Source: Microvenator marinus (GTDB taxonomy: Bacteria > Myxococcota_A > Bradymonadia > Bradymonadales > Bradymonadaceae). Taken from it: DNA of 64,000 nt. Position numbers and translations under genes: made by a program. The notes below the pieces were generated by a model. The model did not search any database. It saw only the letters and a program-made list of their open reading frames with translations, and was not told the origin of the DNA. Shown piece by piece: positions 44,808 to 52,081 of the stretch. Position 1 is the stretch's first letter. Every line of letters begins with the position of its first letter. The DNA lies in assembly GCF_007993755.1 (NCBI RefSeq), contig NZ_CP042467.1, forward strand, positions 1,836,001-1,900,000, written 5' to 3'.

Positions 44808-47800
44808 TTATGTATCCGCCGCCCGATTCAAGACGCGATAGAGCGTACGCACACTGATGCCGAGCTCCCTCGCGGCGAGCTCGCGGTGTCCGTCGTGGGC
44901 CTCCAAAGCTCGTTTCACCTCTTGAACGCTCACAGCTCTGGGCCTGCCCTGCGATCGCGGCTCAGTGGCCATCTCAGGTCTCCTCGACTGAATTGTGGGA
45001 GCACCCGAGACTCGGCTACGAATAAATGGCTGGAGATCGTGGGCCTCAATACGATCGGACTCCGCCATCGCAAGCCCAGCACTCATCACGTTCTGAAGCT
45101 CCCGCACATTTCCAGGCCAGTCGTGTCGAAGCACGAGCTCTGCCGCACCAACACTGAGGCTCGCGCTCTTTTTCTTCGACTTCAGAATCGCATTGGCAAT
45201 GGGCACGATGTCTTCAGTACGCTCCCTCAGCGCAGGTACAGCGAGCGAAATCGCAGCGATTCGATAGTAGAGATCCTCTCGAAAATCCCCATTTTGGATC
45301 ATCTTCTCAAGGTTTTTGTGGGTCGCCGCCACGATTCGAACGTCGACCTTTTCACTGCGCGTTGAGCCCACGCGCCTCACCACACCCTCTTGAAGCACGC
45401 GAAGCAACTTGACCTGCATGGCAAGCGGTAATTCTGCGATCTCATCCAAAAATAGCGTGCCCTTGTCGGCGGCCTGAAACATGCCGATTCGATCCTGAAC
45501 GGCACCCGTAAATGCCCCCTTCACATGACCGAACATCTCGGATTCCATCAGGGTCTCGGTCAGCGCACCGCAGTTAAGAGCCACAAATGGCCCACGCGCC
45601 CTGCCTGACGCGTCGTGGATGGCGCGGGCGAGCAACTCTTTTCCGGTCCCGGACTCCCCGCAAATCACGACTGGAATCTCGGAAGCCCCAACCTTTTTGA
45701 CCTTGATCAGAACCTCTTCCATCACGCGTGAAACCCACACCAAACCCTGAACCTGAGGGACCTTTGAAGCCCTGACGCGGACAACCTCATCCCTCAGACT
45801 CTCGATAGCCAACTCACGCTCACGGGCAATCGCGTCGAGCCTCTCGTTGGCCTCAGCGAGCTCGGCGCGTGAGTGCTCGAGTTTCGAGATTCGCTCAAGG
45901 TTCGTGAGCGCGAGCGCGACCTGATGACCGTAGGCCTCCATAAGGCGAGGAATCTGGCCGCTGAAAGCACCCGGCGTGTATCGATGGTCAAGATATAATG
46001 CGCCAAGCAGGCCATCTGCGTTTCGCACAGGAACACAGAGAACACTCGTCAGGTCCAGATCCACCACACTTCGCGCCGCCTGAAAACGCGCATCTTCCTT
46101 GGCATTGACGGTAGAAACCGTGCGCCCGGTTCGTGCCGCTTCTTCAGCGATTGTCTGGCTCACACCCTGGTCTTCGGCACCTTCAAGATCCATGTTTCGG
46201 CGCGCCGCAACCTTGAAATTTTTTCCCTCTCGCAGGAGCAAAAACGCCCGTTCGGCGCCGCTCAAACTCAGCGCGATATCAAGGGCTTCGTTTGCCATCT
46301 CGTCTAGACTTGTGGCGCGCAAAATGACTTCGTTGAACCCTAGCAGCCGGTAGAACACCTCTGCACTCTCGGGAGTCTGACTCGGCTGGACAGCCTTCTC
46401 AGGCGCTCGCACCGGCTCATCACGCCCCTCAACACCAGGAAGGCTCGCAAAGAAGTCGCGCCGAAGCTCCCTCGTCAACCCCATCGCAATGGCATTCCTG
46501 GAATCCTTCACGAGGCTCAAGACTTCTTCCTCGAGCTCCTCAAGCCCCTGCGAAATCAGGACTCTCATCAAGTGCGGCGACTCTTCCAAGACAAGCTTAT
46601 GATGGCCGGCCGAGTGGGCTTCCTTAAGCGAACGCCTAAAGAGTTCGATACCCGACATCAGACTCGTATCGGTCTCAATTGCCCAGCCAAGTCTGGCACG
46701 TACAATGCCAAAAAGAGGACCGTGCTCAAGCACTCCACCATTCTCAATGGCCGTCCTCGCCTCTTCCACGATTTTTTCGGCGGCACGCGAATTTGCGTCG
46801 AGCTCTAGCTTGGCGGTCGCCAGCAGAATCTCCACACGCTGCGAAGGACTCGGGGCCTTGGACAAAGCCTCGCGATAGCGCGCCTTGGCGCCGTCTGGCT
46901 CCCCTCGTCTGGCCGCGAGGTCGCCCATTAGCGTCAAACACATCACTTCTGTGGTTCCAAGCCTGCTCGCCTCAGCGATAGCGGCCGCGCGCCTGACCAG
47001 CTCATCAGCCTCTTCGAAGCGCCCGAGAGTCAGGTCGATATTGCCCTGATTCGCCAAAAGGAGTGCGCGTGTGTTTGGCCTGGTGGAATCATGCGAAATG
47101 CGATTGCCACGCGCGTAAAACTCCCGCGCAAGACCTAGCCGCCCTTGCCGGTGGTACGCTGTTCCAGCATTCAAAAGATATGTGGGCAACTCACCATCAA
47201 GCCCCTCGGCTTCCACTATTTCGAGGGCTCGCACATACGCATCACAGGCCTCGTCGAGGCGACCAGCCCGTGTCAATCCGATTCCCCGATATGCGTGCAG
47301 CCGCGCTCTATAGAGGGGCGCGATATCCGGCAGCCGGACGCAATCCTCAAGCTCCTTGAGGGAATCGTGCTCCCCGCGCATCGCACGAGGCGCAGCCTTC
47401 AGAACACTTAGCCAACCGCTGGCATCAGGCCACGCTTTGGACGTCTCCAACGCATACCGTTCAGCATCATCAAAGCGCCCAGCTGAAAGCGAGAGTTGCG
47501 CCCTCCAAAGTCCTGCGTCAAATCCGTCGACGCCGTCCAGAACATCGAGTCCGTCAGCATGGCGCCCCAGCGCGTGAAAAAGCCGCGCAAGCTCCACGAA
47601 GAGCTTCTCGTCCCGAAGCGCGGCGGCGAGTTCCTCGATCTCTGGGGCACTCCTTGAGCCAAAAACCAGGGCGTCGGTCCAAGACTTAAGAACCTTTTCA
47701 CGTTCAGCCTTCGCGCGGCGACGCGCCTTTAGCGCCTTGTATATCTGAGACGCAGTCTTGGAGAGTTCAGAGAAAGCACACGCCTGAATCATCGCCTCCG

Positions 47801-49163
47801 AGGTCTCCTCCCATTCGCGAGTCAAAGCCTTAAGCTGCGTGGTATCGAGAGCGGTTTTGGTAACGCCAGAACCCGCCCCAATCTCGGCGTTCAAGGCACG
47901 TAGCATGCCGCAAAGAGACTCCCCGTGTGCGCGGGTAAGCTCCTCAAATCTTTTCCTCGGAATGTCTCGAATCTCGGCACGGGTGCTTCGCGCGCGCCAC
48001 GACTTCCAGAAGTCATTTTCCGAAATGCGGACCTGCAATACCTCGGCGGCTTCCAAAAGACCTCGGTGACCCACAACACGACCATTGGTGTATTTTTTGT
48101 ACCAGGACGCCCAATCTTTTAAGTCCTGAGAATAGGCGTCTGCCGGGTCGGAAAAGACCACGAGTTGACGGGGAGACAAGACTTCCGCAAAGCGCCTGAA
48201 CACCCTCAAACGGTCTCCGGTCAACGGTCCTACGGGTTTGCCACTCAACTCCTCGATCGACCGAATCAGCGGCTCCCAGAATGGTCCATCAGAAGCTCGG
48301 ACCTGCAAAACCGTCTGCCCTTCCAACTCAAGTTGGCGGCAGGCGCGGTCCAACACAAGGCTTGCGGTATCTGCATCTGACACGAGCTCCAAAGAATCGG
48401 CAGAACGAATGGTGTCTAAGAAGGCGTCAAAAGAAGAAGGCCACGGTAATCCAACGGGAGCCACGGACGATTTGGCACCGAGCAGGCGTAACTGCTCTAT
48501 AATCGACTCGATCTGCGGCCTCTCATCCGGAGCCGATTGAAAGACCCGAAAGAGCAGATCCCGTAGAGCCTTAGGGACTTTTTGAGACTTCCTAGGCTTC
48601 TTGCTTAAATGTGCACGGGCCCATGAACTAAGGTCCGCCGCCTGATACGGCCAATCGCCGTCAAACGCTCGGTAGATCAATGTGGCCAACGCGTAGACAT
48701 CGGCCGAGGGACCAGGCGACGCGCCTTCCCATTGTTCAGGGGCCATCAGTGGGGCGCTACCGGCGACTTTTGGCCCGATCGTTGCGCCGATTCGCGTATC
48801 GATCAGAACGAGTCCAGACTCGGTCTGAATCACATTATTCGGCTGCAGATCGCCGTGAAACATGCCTTGTTCATGCAGGCCCGCAACGATTTGCGCCAGG
48901 CGCACAAGATCGTCCGGAGAAGGTTCGTGGACTTCCCACGTGGTGCCATCGACCCAATCGCGTTCGGCGATCAACCAGATGCCGTCGCGGTCTTTATCAA
49001 GGTAGAATCGTCTCCATGACGCACAACCATCCACGCTTGTGAGCCAAACATCGTCGGGGCTAAAGTCCCGAACTCTAACGCCCTTTCGAATCCGCTTCTC
49101 CTGGCCAGCTCGAAGAACCCACGTTCGCTCCCCATCTCTTTGCGAGATCAATTCCAAACTCAT
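44808..49163 (-). CDS. Sigma-54 activator with N-terminal kinase-like, TPR and GAF regions
   Basis: 1451 residues. Residues 1-220 are a kinase-like fold: HGDLQPNN at 103-110 in place of HRD...N and DTR at 122-124 in place of DFG, with no clear VAIK lysine, so its activity is doubtful. A long helical region (about 490-880) has TPR-like repeats; a GAF domain spans about 945-1100. The AAA+ domain has Walker A GESGTGKE (about 1167), the sigma-54-contacting GAFTGA (about 1215) and Walker B LFLDEIAEL. The C-terminus is a Fis-type HTH (AARELGISVRTLYRVLNR). GAFTGA means it drives sigma-54 promoters. It is divergent from yoaK by 16 bases. Confidence 0.93.
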   Translation of the reverse strand: MSLELISQRDGERTWVLRAGQEKRIRKGVRVRDFSPDDVWLTSVDGCASWRRFYLDKDRDGIWLIAERDWVDGTTWEVHEPSPDDLVRLAQIVAGLHEQGMFHGDLQPNNVIQTESGLVLIDTRIGATIGPKVAGSAPLMAPEQWEGASPGPSADVYALATLIYRAFDGDWPYQAADLSSWARAHLSKKPRKSQKVPKALRDLLFRVFQSAPDERPQIESIIEQLRLLGAKSSVAPVGLPWPSSFDAFLDTIRSADSLELVSDADTASLVLDRACRQLELEGQTVLQVRASDGPFWEPLIRSIEELSGKPVGPLTGDRLRVFRRFAEVLSPRQLVVFSDPADAYSQDLKDWASWYKKYTNGRVVGHRGLLEAAEVLQVRISENDFWKSWRARSTRAEIRDIPRKRFEELTRAHGESLCGMLRALNAEIGAGSGVTKTALDTTQLKALTREWEETSEAMIQACAFSELSKTASQIYKALKARRRAKAEREKVLKSWTDALVFGSRSAPEIEELAAALRDEKLFVELARLFHALGRHADGLDVLDGVDGFDAGLWRAQLSLSAGRFDDAERYALETSKAWPDASGWLSVLKAAPRAMRGEHDSLKELEDCVRLPDIAPLYRARLHAYRGIGLTRAGRLDEACDAYVRALEIVEAEGLDGELPTYLLNAGTAYHRQGRLGLAREFYARGNRISHDSTRPNTRALLLANQGNIDLTLGRFEEADELVRRAAAIAEASRLGTTEVMCLTLMGDLAARRGEPDGAKARYREALSKAPSPSQRVEILLATAKLELDANSRAAEKIVEEARTAIENGGVLEHGPLFGIVRARLGWAIETDTSLMSGIELFRRSLKEAHSAGHHKLVLEESPHLMRVLISQGLEELEEEVLSLVKDSRNAIAMGLTRELRRDFFASLPGVEGRDEPVRAPEKAVQPSQTPESAEVFYRLLGFNEVILRATSLDEMANEALDIALSLSGAERAFLLLREGKNFKVAARRNMDLEGAEDQGVSQTIAEEAARTGRTVSTVNAKEDARFQAARSVVDLDLTSVLCVPVRNADGLLGALYLDHRYTPGAFSGQIPRLMEAYGHQVALALTNLERISKLEHSRAELAEANERLDAIARERELAIESLRDEVVRVRASKVPQVQGLVWVSRVMEEVLIKVKKVGASEIPVVICGESGTGKELLARAIHDASGRARGPFVALNCGALTETLMESEMFGHVKGAFTGAVQDRIGMFQAADKGTLFLDEIAELPLAMQVKLLRVLQEGVVRRVGSTRSEKVDVRIVAATHKNLEKMIQNGDFREDLYYRIAAISLAVPALRERTEDIVPIANAILKSKKKSASLSVGAAELVLRHDWPGNVRELQNVMSAGLAMAESDRIEAHDLQPFIRSRVSGAPTIQSRRPEMATEPRSQGRPRAVSVQEVKRALEAHDGHRELAARELGISVRTLYRVLNRAADT

Positions 49164-49179
49164 GGTATTAGCTTAGCCC

Positions 49180-49836
49180 ATGAATAACCAACCCTCCAAC
49201 TTCGTGTTTTTCCTCATCGGCGGCGCGCTACTCTCAGCCACCGCGGGATTCGTGGACGCCGCAACCATACTCGCCCCGGGCCAACTCGCCGTATCGCACG
49301 TCACAGGCTCGGTGGCCAAACTTGCCGTGGACACCGCCAGCGGAGGCTCATTGAGCACGGGACTGATATTTGGCGGCATCGGCGCGTTTTTCCTTGGAAG
49401 TGCGCTCAGCGGCGCCACCCTCGAGTCCACACAACTCAGACTCGGTCGCCGATACGGCGTACTTCTTTGCATCGAGGGACTGCTCTTGACCGCAGCCGCG
49501 CTACTCCTGATAAGCGGCGAGCCCAAAGGAGTGATCTTGGCAGCCGCGGCGTGTGGGTTGCAAAATGCGATGGCCACCCAATATAGCGGAGCCATCGTCA
49601 GAACCACCCATGTCACGGGCCTCGTCACCGACCTCGGCATCACGCTCGGCAAATGGGTTTCCAGAAAACCTGTCGAAAGCTGGCGCGCCATACTTCACAC
49701 CACGTTGGCACTAAGTTTCGGCCTCGGAGCCTTCACCGGCGCGAAACTCTACGCAACCTATGGCGGCGCCATCCTCTTCGGGCCTGCGATCACGATTCTG
49801 CTACTCGGCGCTGCTTACGCGGCCCGCAAAAAGTAA
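49180..49836 (+). CDS. YoaK-family (DUF1275) membrane protein
   Basis: 218 residues with about six hydrophobic helices. The conserved start (GGALLSATAGFVDAATIL), then HVTGSVAKLA, GLQNAMATQYSGAIVRTTHV and TGLVTDLGITLG are typical of YoaK/DUF1275 integral membrane proteins, whose function is not established. Only 16 bases separate its ATG from the divergent activator start, so their promoters must overlap one another or the coding regions. Confidence 0.88.
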   Translation: MNNQPSNFVFFLIGGALLSATAGFVDAATILAPGQLAVSHVTGSVAKLAVDTASGGSLSTGLIFGGIGAFFLGSALSGATLESTQLRLGRRYGVLLCIEGLLLTAAALLLISGEPKGVILAAAACGLQNAMATQYSGAIVRTTHVTGLVTDLGITLGKWVSRKPVESWRAILHTTLALSFGLGAFTGAKLYATYGGAILFGPAITILLLGAAYAARKK

Positions 49837-49875
49837 AGCTGACAACCCACCAAGCCTGTCAAAACAAAGCACTTA

Positions 49876-49906
49876 TGTCATGACATTAACAACCTACGTC
49901 ATGACA
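49876..49906. promoter_or_regulatory. Two CATGAC-centred palindromes 21 bp apart, candidate upstream activator sites
   Basis: TGTCATGACA (49876-49885, a perfect 10-base palindrome) and CGTCATGACA (49897-49906) start 21 bases apart, two helical turns, and each is followed by a short A/T-rich stretch and AACAACCTA. They lie about 75-105 bases upstream of the sigma-54-like promoter at 49981, the usual distance for enhancer sites bound by Fis-type activators. Confidence 0.5.
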
Positions 49907-49980
49907 ATAAACAACCTACCCACCCACACAAACCATCTAGAAACAAAATAAATCAACCACTTAATCACAATCACAACATA

Positions 49981-49996
49981 TGGCACGGAGATTGAA
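49981..49996 (+). promoter_or_regulatory. Sigma-54-type (-24/-12) promoter for the tandem lipoprotein genes
   Basis: TGGCAC (49981-49986), five bases, TTGAA (49992-49996). It matches the consensus TGGCAC-N5-TTGCA except for A in place of the -12 C. The expected start of transcription is near 50008. The ATG at 50040 follows with AAGGAG at 50028-50033. The imperfect -12 box is the weak point. Confidence 0.5.
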
Positions 49997-50039
49997 CTAG
50001 TAGATGAACGTCACTTAAACACGAACCAAGGAGTTCATC

Positions 50040-51062
50040 ATGTACCGATTGACACTAACCACCCTACTCGCCGCCTTGACCCTTAGCGCATGCGCTCAGG
50101 ACGACGCTCCGATCCATATGCAAGATGCCGAGGGCGACGAATTCCGGCAGGGACTCATCACCACCGACGACATCGCGATGGAATTCAACACCGGCAACAC
50201 AAGACAACAAGCCCTCGAAGGCCAGGTCAGCGTCATCGCGGCCCTCACCGCCGATTCGGTGATTTCCACCAATGCATGGGTCTTCGCACACATCCAGCTC
50301 ATGCGCGCCATCAGCCTCTACCCACCCACACTTGAGGAAGAGAACGCACGCGTCTGGGAAGGAGAAGACAAAGGCAACTTCTACCGAGTCCGAATCGAGC
50401 GCGAGGATCGGGAAGAAGGCACCCATTTCACCTACTCATTCCACGGACGACTCGCCTCTGAGCCTGCTGAAGACCTGAGGCTGCTCTTAGACGGCGACAT
50501 CCTCAGGACCAAGCTCGCACCGGACGCCGAAGGATTTGGGGTGGTTCGATTCTACTTCGACAACCTTTCCCACCTGGATCCAAACTCCGATGTGCAGGGC
50601 ACGGCACGCGTGGCCTTCAGAAAACATGACGGCACACGGCAGGTGCACAATCGCATGGTCAACATGGTGGTCCCGGACGACCAGCAGTTTCCTGAATTCG
50701 CCGAGTTCGCCTACTCACAAGTACGTGGTGAAGGTGGTGAGCTTAGGTGGTTCTCACGCGGCGACGTCAAGAATGACGGCGAGCCTTTTGAGTACGTCAC
50801 GGCACACTCCAAGTGGAACGCAGACTTCAGTGGGGTTGGGCTCGCCAATGCCTTCGGTGGCAGCATTGATGTTGATGGATGGACCCTCGTCGAGTGCTGG
50901 GGCACCACGCTGCACAAATCCTACGACCTCTTGAGCGTAGGCATGACAGATCTCGAATCGGGCGACCCCGAAAGCTGTGGAGGTAATTCCGACCAATTGG
51001 ACCCTCCTCCGTTCTATGAGACACTGCCGAATGAAGATCCTGAGATTCCGGCGAGTCTATAA
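50040..51062 (+). CDS. Hypothetical lipoprotein, paralogue 1 of a tandem pair
   Basis: 340 residues. Signal peptide with lipobox LSAC followed by AQDD. The mature protein is beta-rich, with acidic and aromatic residues and no known domain. It is a paralogue of the next gene: both have RQQ-L-G near residue 50, a helix leading to an RAIS/DAIS segment, W followed by E/D-rich YR-R/YSRLD, FYFDN/FNFDN near the middle and G-RQV before a final Cys pair (ECWGTT / ECWDEA-type). AAGGAG lies six bases before the ATG. A sigma-54-like promoter and twin palindromes lie upstream, so expression is probably conditional. Confidence 0.75.
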   Translation: MYRLTLTTLLAALTLSACAQDDAPIHMQDAEGDEFRQGLITTDDIAMEFNTGNTRQQALEGQVSVIAALTADSVISTNAWVFAHIQLMRAISLYPPTLEEENARVWEGEDKGNFYRVRIEREDREEGTHFTYSFHGRLASEPAEDLRLLLDGDILRTKLAPDAEGFGVVRFYFDNLSHLDPNSDVQGTARVAFRKHDGTRQVHNRMVNMVVPDDQQFPEFAEFAYSQVRGEGGELRWFSRGDVKNDGEPFEYVTAHSKWNADFSGVGLANAFGGSIDVDGWTLVECWGTTLHKSYDLLSVGMTDLESGDPESCGGNSDQLDPPPFYETLPNEDPEIPASL

Positions 51063-51085: not shown

Positions 51086-52081
51086 ATGCGCACCACTATT
51101 CTTAAAATCCTAGCTCTCGGCCTCATCGGATGTGGCCCTTTGGTCACTGAACCCATGCCCGATATTCCGCAAACCGTGAAGTACGAGACGGTTCGCATTG
51201 AGTACGGAAACGACGACCTCCTTCCCGACTCCGAATCGCGCCAACAAGAGCTCGTCGGAGACATCAGCAACGTCGCGCTCATCACGCAGGCTCTGGTGCG
51301 CGGGACAAACCGTGTGGTGCGCGCCCAGCTCTTCCTCGTAGATGCTATTTCGCGGTTTCGGCCGTCGTCGTTCACCCAGAATTCGTGGACCTGGGAGTCC
51401 CAAGAGGAGCGCTACTCTCGACTCGACCTGACGCGCACCTCGCCAGAAGACGAGTCCGTGGAATACGAACTTCTGGTCGGCCCAACAAAAGATGAGGCGC
51501 GCGTGGTCTTGTCGGGGGAATTCACGAACTTTGACCCTGAAGGGCCCTTGCAGTCTGGAGAGGGCTTGCTCAGATTTAACTTCGATAACGACCCAGATTC
51601 GGTATCCACAGGGAGTATCTCCATCGCGTTCCGCGCCGCAAACGGGGTTCGGCAGGTGCGCGTCGCGTTCTTCGAATTCCAAGAGACTCCGGACACGCCG
51701 GCCCAAAGTGCCCTTTACGAGTACACTCAGTTTGAGGATGGCCGTGGAAACTTTGACTACGCGGCGCGCCAGGACTTCCTCAAAGATGGAGACCCATTGG
51801 AGCTCGTCTCCATGAGCACCGCCTGGACCTCGGAGCAATCCGGCCGTGCGGCAGCGCGTATTGAGGGCGGAAGTCTTCAAGTCAACGAAGTCCTACTCGA
51901 TGAGTGTTGGGACGAGGCCTCGCGCGTCCTCTGGGCTGACGCCACACCCAACCTTCCGAACTACGATGATGGTGAGGAAGATGCGTGTGACGCTGCGCTC
52001 CAGGGCGTCTCACTTTCGCCTCCCGAAGTCGTGGTCCCCACTGCAGATCCAGCCATCCCAGCCCCTCATCCACAAGAGTAG
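51086..52081 (+). CDS. Hypothetical lipoprotein, paralogue 2 of a tandem pair
   Basis: 331 residues with lipobox LIGC. Same fold as the preceding protein as judged by aligned blocks (RQQELVGDISNVAL; VDAISRFRPSS; LRFNFDNDPDS; GVRQVRVAFFEFQ; LDECWDEAS near the end). The 23-base gap repeats part of the first gene's leader (ACGAACCA), as expected from tandem duplication. No membrane segment after the lipobox. Not recognised as a known family. Confidence 0.75.
   Translation: MRTTILKILALGLIGCGPLVTEPMPDIPQTVKYETVRIEYGNDDLLPDSESRQQELVGDISNVALITQALVRGTNRVVRAQLFLVDAISRFRPSSFTQNSWTWESQEERYSRLDLTRTSPEDESVEYELLVGPTKDEARVVLSGEFTNFDPEGPLQSGEGLLRFNFDNDPDSVSTGSISIAFRAANGVRQVRVAFFEFQETPDTPAQSALYEYTQFEDGRGNFDYAARQDFLKDGDPLELVSMSTAWTSEQSGRAAARIEGGSLQVNEVLLDECWDEASRVLWADATPNLPNYDDGEEDACDAALQGVSLSPPEVVVPTADPAIPAPHPQE

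Follow-up and report, generated by a model that had tools for sequence, protein, structure and literature searches.

A putative sigma-54 circuit joining an activator gene to a duplicated lipoprotein operon in Microvenator marinus

Results

The lipoprotein operon and its proposed control region

Our results suggest that two duplicated lipoprotein genes form a sigma-54-dependent operon controlled from positions 49840-49996 of the window (the whole 64,000-nucleotide stretch of DNA analysed here), and we consider it likely that this operon is driven by the neighbouring activator acting on a cluster of half-sites. In the proposed mechanism, RpoN-RNA polymerase would form a closed complex on the -24/-12 box at 49981-49996, and the activator encoded at 44808-49163 would bind the TGTCA/TGACA cluster at 49840-49906, ~80-140 bp 5' of the box. 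The GAFTGA AAA+ domain of the activator would then open the promoter, with the transcript starting near 50008, while the kinase-like/TPR/GAF part of the protein would provide the signal input. All parts of the circuit are present, are conserved together with their position, and are co-inherited. We infer that the local activator, rather than another of the ~25 strong sigma-54 activators in the genome, binds the half-sites, and likewise the start site, the RpoN dependence and the signal of the operon. The elements alone prove little, and it is the comparison with relatives that supports the circuit; being kept in related bacteria, the arrangement is very probably real. The features of the locus are as follows.

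44808-49163, reverse strand: sigma-54 activator (bacterial enhancer-binding protein) of 1451 aa, from Pfam, ortholog alignment and its place as divergent neighbour in relatives
49180-49836, forward strand: DUF1275 membrane protein gene, between activator and lipoproteins (Pfam; the relatives read have another gene order)
49840-49844, no strand: half-site TGACA, from sequence
49857-49861, no strand: half-site TGTCA, from sequence
49876-49885, no strand: palindrome TGTCATGACA, two half-sites, proposed activator site, from sequence and from the half-site cluster conserved in relatives
49897-49906, no strand: palindrome CGTCATGACA, second copy, from sequence
49877-49919, no strand: 22-bp tandem duplication, 2.0 copies, 90% matches, spanning both palindrome cores (Tandem Repeats Finder)
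49981-49996, forward strand: -24/-12 box TGGCAC-GGAGA-TTGAA, from sequence, with a shuffle p of 0.001 and the same relative place in relatives
50028-50033, forward strand: ribosome-binding site AAGGAG before the ATG at 50040, from sequence
50040-51062, forward strand: lipoprotein 1, 340 aa, lipobox ending in Cys18, from sequence
51086-52081, forward strand: lipoprotein 2, 331 aa, ~28% identical to lipoprotein 1

The gap between the DUF1275 gene and lipoprotein 1 is 203 bp long and AT-rich (40% GC). The original prediction had placed in it a TGGCAC-N5-TTGAA box at 49981, 59 bases 5' of the ATG at 50040, and two palindromes 21 bp apart, 75-105 bases 5' of TGGCAC; both are exact in the sequence. 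The gene for a GAFTGA/Fis-HTH activator, said to lie less than 1 kb away, starts at 49163, 713 bp from the first palindrome, with the DUF1275 gene in between. Counted as TGTCA/TGACA, five half-sites occupy the gap, starting at 49840, 49857, 49876, 49881 and 49902, those at 49840 and 49857 being additional to the palindromes described earlier. Note that the start codons of the activator and of the divergent DUF1275 gene are separated by just 16 bases (window 49163-49180), which leaves scarcely any space for two promoters.

The box has GG at -24, G at -12 and 10 bp between the dinucleotides (T-GG-CACGGAGATT-GA, 49981-49995), with GA rather than GC at -12, so that TTGAA is one base off the consensus TTGCA. 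One-base deviations in GG or GC occur in characterised sigma-54 promoters (PMC7910581). The genome contains 151 boxes when up to one mismatch is allowed, ~1 per 39 kb of double-stranded sequence; since the reversed control gave 227, the box alone is not significant genome-wide. The sampled upstream regions of this genome, which we refer to as G000 (n=151), contained 5 such boxes in sense, 3 in antisense and 0 in reversed orientation. Within the 203-bp gap, dinucleotide shuffles gave p ~0.001 for the box and p 0.0005 for the number of half-sites, both for elements chosen after the sequence had been read. The genome carries one copy of rpoN (Sigma54_DBD 222 bits, C1:4359927), and transcription is predicted to start near 50007-50008.

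TGTCATGACA itself occurs once in the genome, and ~1.6 sites like it, with at most one mismatch, are expected per window. The GTCATGAC pair is unique in the 5.85 Mb genome: the scan for palindrome pairs that had been proposed, run with the exact pair, returned no locus but 49876-49906. Since one 22-bp unit, present twice, accounts for both palindromes, they are not independent evidence.

The arrangement of the proposed circuit is conserved in related bacteria

Lipoprotein genes were sought in relatives and the activator in 57 genomes of the class, and the loci were read on both strands. Activator orthologs were present in G000, G004, G010, G011, G019, G031 and G021-G025. All of these genomes have lipoprotein genes, which adjoin the activator wherever the contig allows. 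The activator is directly divergent to the lipoprotein pair in G004, G010, G011 and G019, which belong to the same family as G000, and in G031, which belongs to another. Unlike G000, these five carry no DUF1275 gene between activator and lipoproteins, and this gene seems to have been inserted in G000 between the activator and its old target. The lipoproteins of the relatives sharing the circuit are ~30-45% identical.

A sense -24/-12 box lies 60-98 bp 5' of the lipoprotein start in the gap of the five relatives, with no mismatch in G010 (TGGCACACCCATTGCT), one in G004, G011 and G019, and two in G031. Shuffle p values for G010, G004, G011 and G019 were 0.0005-0.0045, and the best antisense match had at least 4 mismatches. 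The -12 dinucleotide is GC in G004, G010 and G011 and GT in G019 and G031; the -12 element is weak in these last two. Deviating elements (TTGTA, TTGAG) are also found in some relatives. Six loci from the five genomes were compared with intergenic regions from samples of G000 (400 kb), G010 (200 kb) and G004 (160 kb); G031 contributes two loci, the second with a weak box and no adjoining activator gene. Boxes with at most one mismatch were present in 4 of the 6 loci and in 5 of 284 control upstream regions (p 6e-6); at least three half-sites within 70 bp in 5 of 6 and 0 of 253 control intergenic regions (p 6e-10); and half-site pairs with a spacing of exactly 9 bp in 5 of 6 and 1 of 253 (p 4e-9). 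These p values are guides, since the controls use a simple ORF caller and related genomes, and the counts are not fully independent because the relatives share ancestry.

Relative to the box, the half-sites start 79-141 bp upstream in G000 and 87-158 bp upstream in the relatives; these putative activator sites thus lie close to the ~80-150 bp reported for activator sites upstream of promoters (PMC7910581). In the relatives the half-sites are often spaced in 9-bp steps (7 strict pairs; relaxing the half-sites gives 12 pairs at 9 bp and 8 at 18 bp). G000 departs from this pattern, having back-to-back half-sites that form the palindrome, duplicated at 21 bp. Of the proposed enhancer, what holds is a conserved cluster of sites upstream of the box; the paired palindromes 21 bp apart are a local tandem duplication, and the conserved unit is the TGTCA/TGACA half-site. 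Neither box nor half-site cluster was found at six lipoprotein homologues (L009, L010, L011, L014, L024, L025) whose genomes have no activator ortholog. The predicted local sigma-54 circuit controlling duplicated lipoproteins thus recurs in relatives and is missing 5' of lipoprotein homologues where the genome lacks the activator.

The order-mates gave a mixed picture: clusters are present in G023 and G025 and weak or absent in G021, G022 and G024, and the boxes are weak or absent. In G021-G025 an ECF sigma gene mostly precedes the lipoprotein; specifically, in G022-G025 (L063, L064, L068, L069) the activator ortholog is divergent to an ECF sigma factor gene, which is followed by the lipoprotein. 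A cascade from sigma-54 to the ECF factor is possible in these four genomes.

The activator and the lipoproteins

Pfam recognises in the activator a kinase-like domain, TPR, GAF, an AAA+ domain and a Fis-type HTH. The AAA+ domain is of the NtrC family (Sigma54_activat 233 bits, Walker A GESGTGKE, GAFTGA loop), and the HTH is C-terminal (HTH_8 32 bits, residues 1415-1443). The closest NCBIfam models are NifA/NorR-like, with scores far under the curated cut-offs. The motifs of functional Ser/Thr kinases (beta3 Lys, HRDxKxxN, DFG) are lacking in G000, which reads HGDLQPNN and IDTR and shows no beta3 Lys that could be recognised; the family of G000 carries HGDLQP or a similar motif and lacks DFG, and in the ortholog alignment G022-G025 and G031 keep the Lys and a DFG-type motif. 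A STAND-like region has lost its P-loop in G000 and has an altered one in others, with AAA_16 recognised in G011. Kinase-like and STAND-like modules (window 44808-49163) are decayed in the family of G000, whereas other families of the class preserve them better. The activator would therefore appear to carry a pseudokinase and a decayed STAND module, and GAF is, judging by these motifs, the likeliest receiver of the signal. The recognition helix of the HTH reads RTLYR or RTLFR in G000, G004, G010, G011 and G031, RTL[YF]R being common to G000 and the relatives with TGTCA clusters; it reads RTLQR, RTFQR or RTLAR in the order-mates, where the half-sites have other spacings. Our search of one literature library returned nothing on kinase-fused sigma-54 activators or on sigma-54 in Bradymonadales.

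Lipoproteins 1 and 2 are homologous and, given the 23-bp gap between their genes, probably belong to the same operon. Their family, which 81 of the 284 genomes sampled from the phylum contain, has invariant Trp and Cys residues. Sequence searches of Pfam, NCBIfam and PDB with the lipoproteins returned no match. The AlphaFold model (pLDDT 75) consists mostly of antiparallel strands, and Foldseek found no convincing match to it, the best being outer-membrane barrels (E 0.05, TM <0.3). Lipidation and the precedent of QseG (PMC6075780) lead us to guess at a role at the envelope.

Alternative explanations

Several features of the locus count against the local circuit: its own -12 is TTGAA and not the consensus, its half-sites lack the 9-bp steps and the palindrome pair is a tandem duplication, and in G000 the activator and the promoter lie on either side of the DUF1275 gene. 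The promoter and enhancer could also be real and yet be bound by an activator that recognises TGACA-N4-TGTCA throughout the class, or by both activators. The TGTCA half-site is common to both types of site, and combinations of TGACA-N4-TGTCA with TGGCA occur class-wide (33 against 2 in reversed controls), also where the local activator is absent; half-site identity alone thus does not name the activator. One such arrangement lies inside the lipoprotein promoter of G010, and the ~25 activators of the genome offer other candidates. However, in the clusters upstream of the lipoproteins the spacers are AT-rich and the half-sites form direct repeats in 9-bp steps rather than the TGACAtcgaTGTCA palindrome, the linkage of local activator and promoter is kept across genera, and homologues in genomes without the local activator have no sites. 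We regard binding by the class-wide activator as rather unlikely.

It is very improbable that the palindromes instead serve a sigma-70 promoter, as operators bound by its repressor or activator (a dimer of the GntR or TetR type, for example), the -24/-12 match having arisen by chance. Taken alone, the -24/-12 box shows no genome-wide enrichment, and a weak sigma-70-like match (ATGACA-17-GACAAT) is present at 49880-49908; relatives, however, carry boxes with low shuffle p at the corresponding place, and the half-sites lie 79-158 bp 5' of the box and not over a core promoter. The sigma-70 promoter was rejected as an alternative because its matches in the region are at background level, 2 against 1.2 expected from shuffles. 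Pure chance, with the -24/-12 match accidental in an AT-rich gap that happens to hold a tandem duplication, is hardly credible: the duplication at 49877-49919 is there and boxes with at most one mismatch are as frequent as noted above, but both elements and the gene order are conserved in diverged relatives and absent in homologues without the activator. The local circuit is the reading we retain. A more elaborate version of it, which we put forward as an unlikely conjecture, is that the activator derives from a kinase-STAND-TPR-GAF sensor whose kinase and P-loop have decayed, that the duplicated lipoproteins, besides being its target, are its partners in signalling at the envelope, and that in the order-mates the activator drives an ECF sigma factor together with a lipoprotein, as a sigma-54 to ECF cascade.

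Discussion

The logic of the circuit matches that of Desulfovibrio (PMC4641369) and of tested Myxococcus promoters (PMC7910581), so that the kind of system is already known: it would be an ordinary bacterial switch, and what is new is its uncharacterised target. In Desulfovibrio vulgaris (PMC4641369), one-component activators are likewise divergent to their own sigma-54 promoter with conserved co-localisation, several motifs contain TGT/ACA half-sites, and most activators have regulons of one to four operons; signal domains and targets differ, here being a kinase-like/TPR/GAF activator and a lipoprotein pair. The QseE/QseF-QseG-GlmY system of E. coli and Proteus (PMC8745638, PMC6075780) has a sigma-54 activator with TGTCN10GACA sites, control of the envelope, a lipoprotein partner and an sRNA/rpoE output. 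QseF differs in being a response regulator with a histidine kinase and in its site spacing. Nla28-type promoters of Myxococcus xanthus (PMC7910581) share the TGGCACG-N4-TTGC(T/A) consensus and tandem half-sites 80-150 bp upstream, whereas half-site and activator differ and the Myxococcus promoters are mostly intragenic. NifA/NorR-like activators have the same GAF-AAA+-HTH core, to which the kinase-like and TPR regions are added here.

With one activator, one operon and one enhancer, the circuit offers an experimentally simple entry to sigma-54 control in a little-studied group. It also gives a kinase-like/TPR/GAF activator a probable half-site, TGTCA, and links a regulator with a family of lipoproteins that has no known domain.

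A putative second sigma-54 regulon and a putative sRNA family

The class was also scanned for half-site pairs 9 bp apart (TGWCA-N4-TGWCA) with TGGCA downstream. The 33 matches mentioned above are TGACA-N4-TGTCA (TGACAtcgaTGTCA) palindromes 100-127 bp 5' of -24/-12 boxes. Loci of this kind are L118 and L123 (own genome, C1:1079.9k and 1579.1k), L126, L128, L130, L132, L137, L146 and L148. Predicted targets include genes for putative lipoproteins, genes of the fic type in G006 and G009, and an apparent RpoD-type sigma gene in G004. These sites look like the regulon of another activator.

Three of the sites precede a non-coding stretch of ~90-110 nt that ends in a strong terminator-like hairpin. 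A model built from these three found the RNA in further genomes, defining a putative sRNA family with a stem-loop, a C-rich loop and a terminator (L127/L165, own genome C1:2988927-2989040, outside the window; in relatives L129, L135, L166-L174 and L177). Nearly all members have a TGGCAC-N5-NTGCA-type box ~29-38 bp 5' of the sRNA core, and several have the TGACA-N4-TGTCA palindrome. A search of Rfam returned no match, and the family appears to be new.

The sRNA model also gave weak matches in G000, G005 and G010 (L179, own genome C1:2726120; L178 in G005; L181 in G010), each antisense within the 5' UTR of a gene. The three genes encode one protein family, whose members in G000 and G005 were recognised as Fic/DOC. 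In each of these three genomes the UTR is complementary to the sRNA of the same genome over 27-29 nt with 1-2 mismatches, from 63-67 nt before the ATG. Cognate duplexes reach -60 to -79 kcal/mol, compared to -35 to -53 for non-cognate ones. This genome-specific complementarity suggests that a trans-acting sRNA controls fic.
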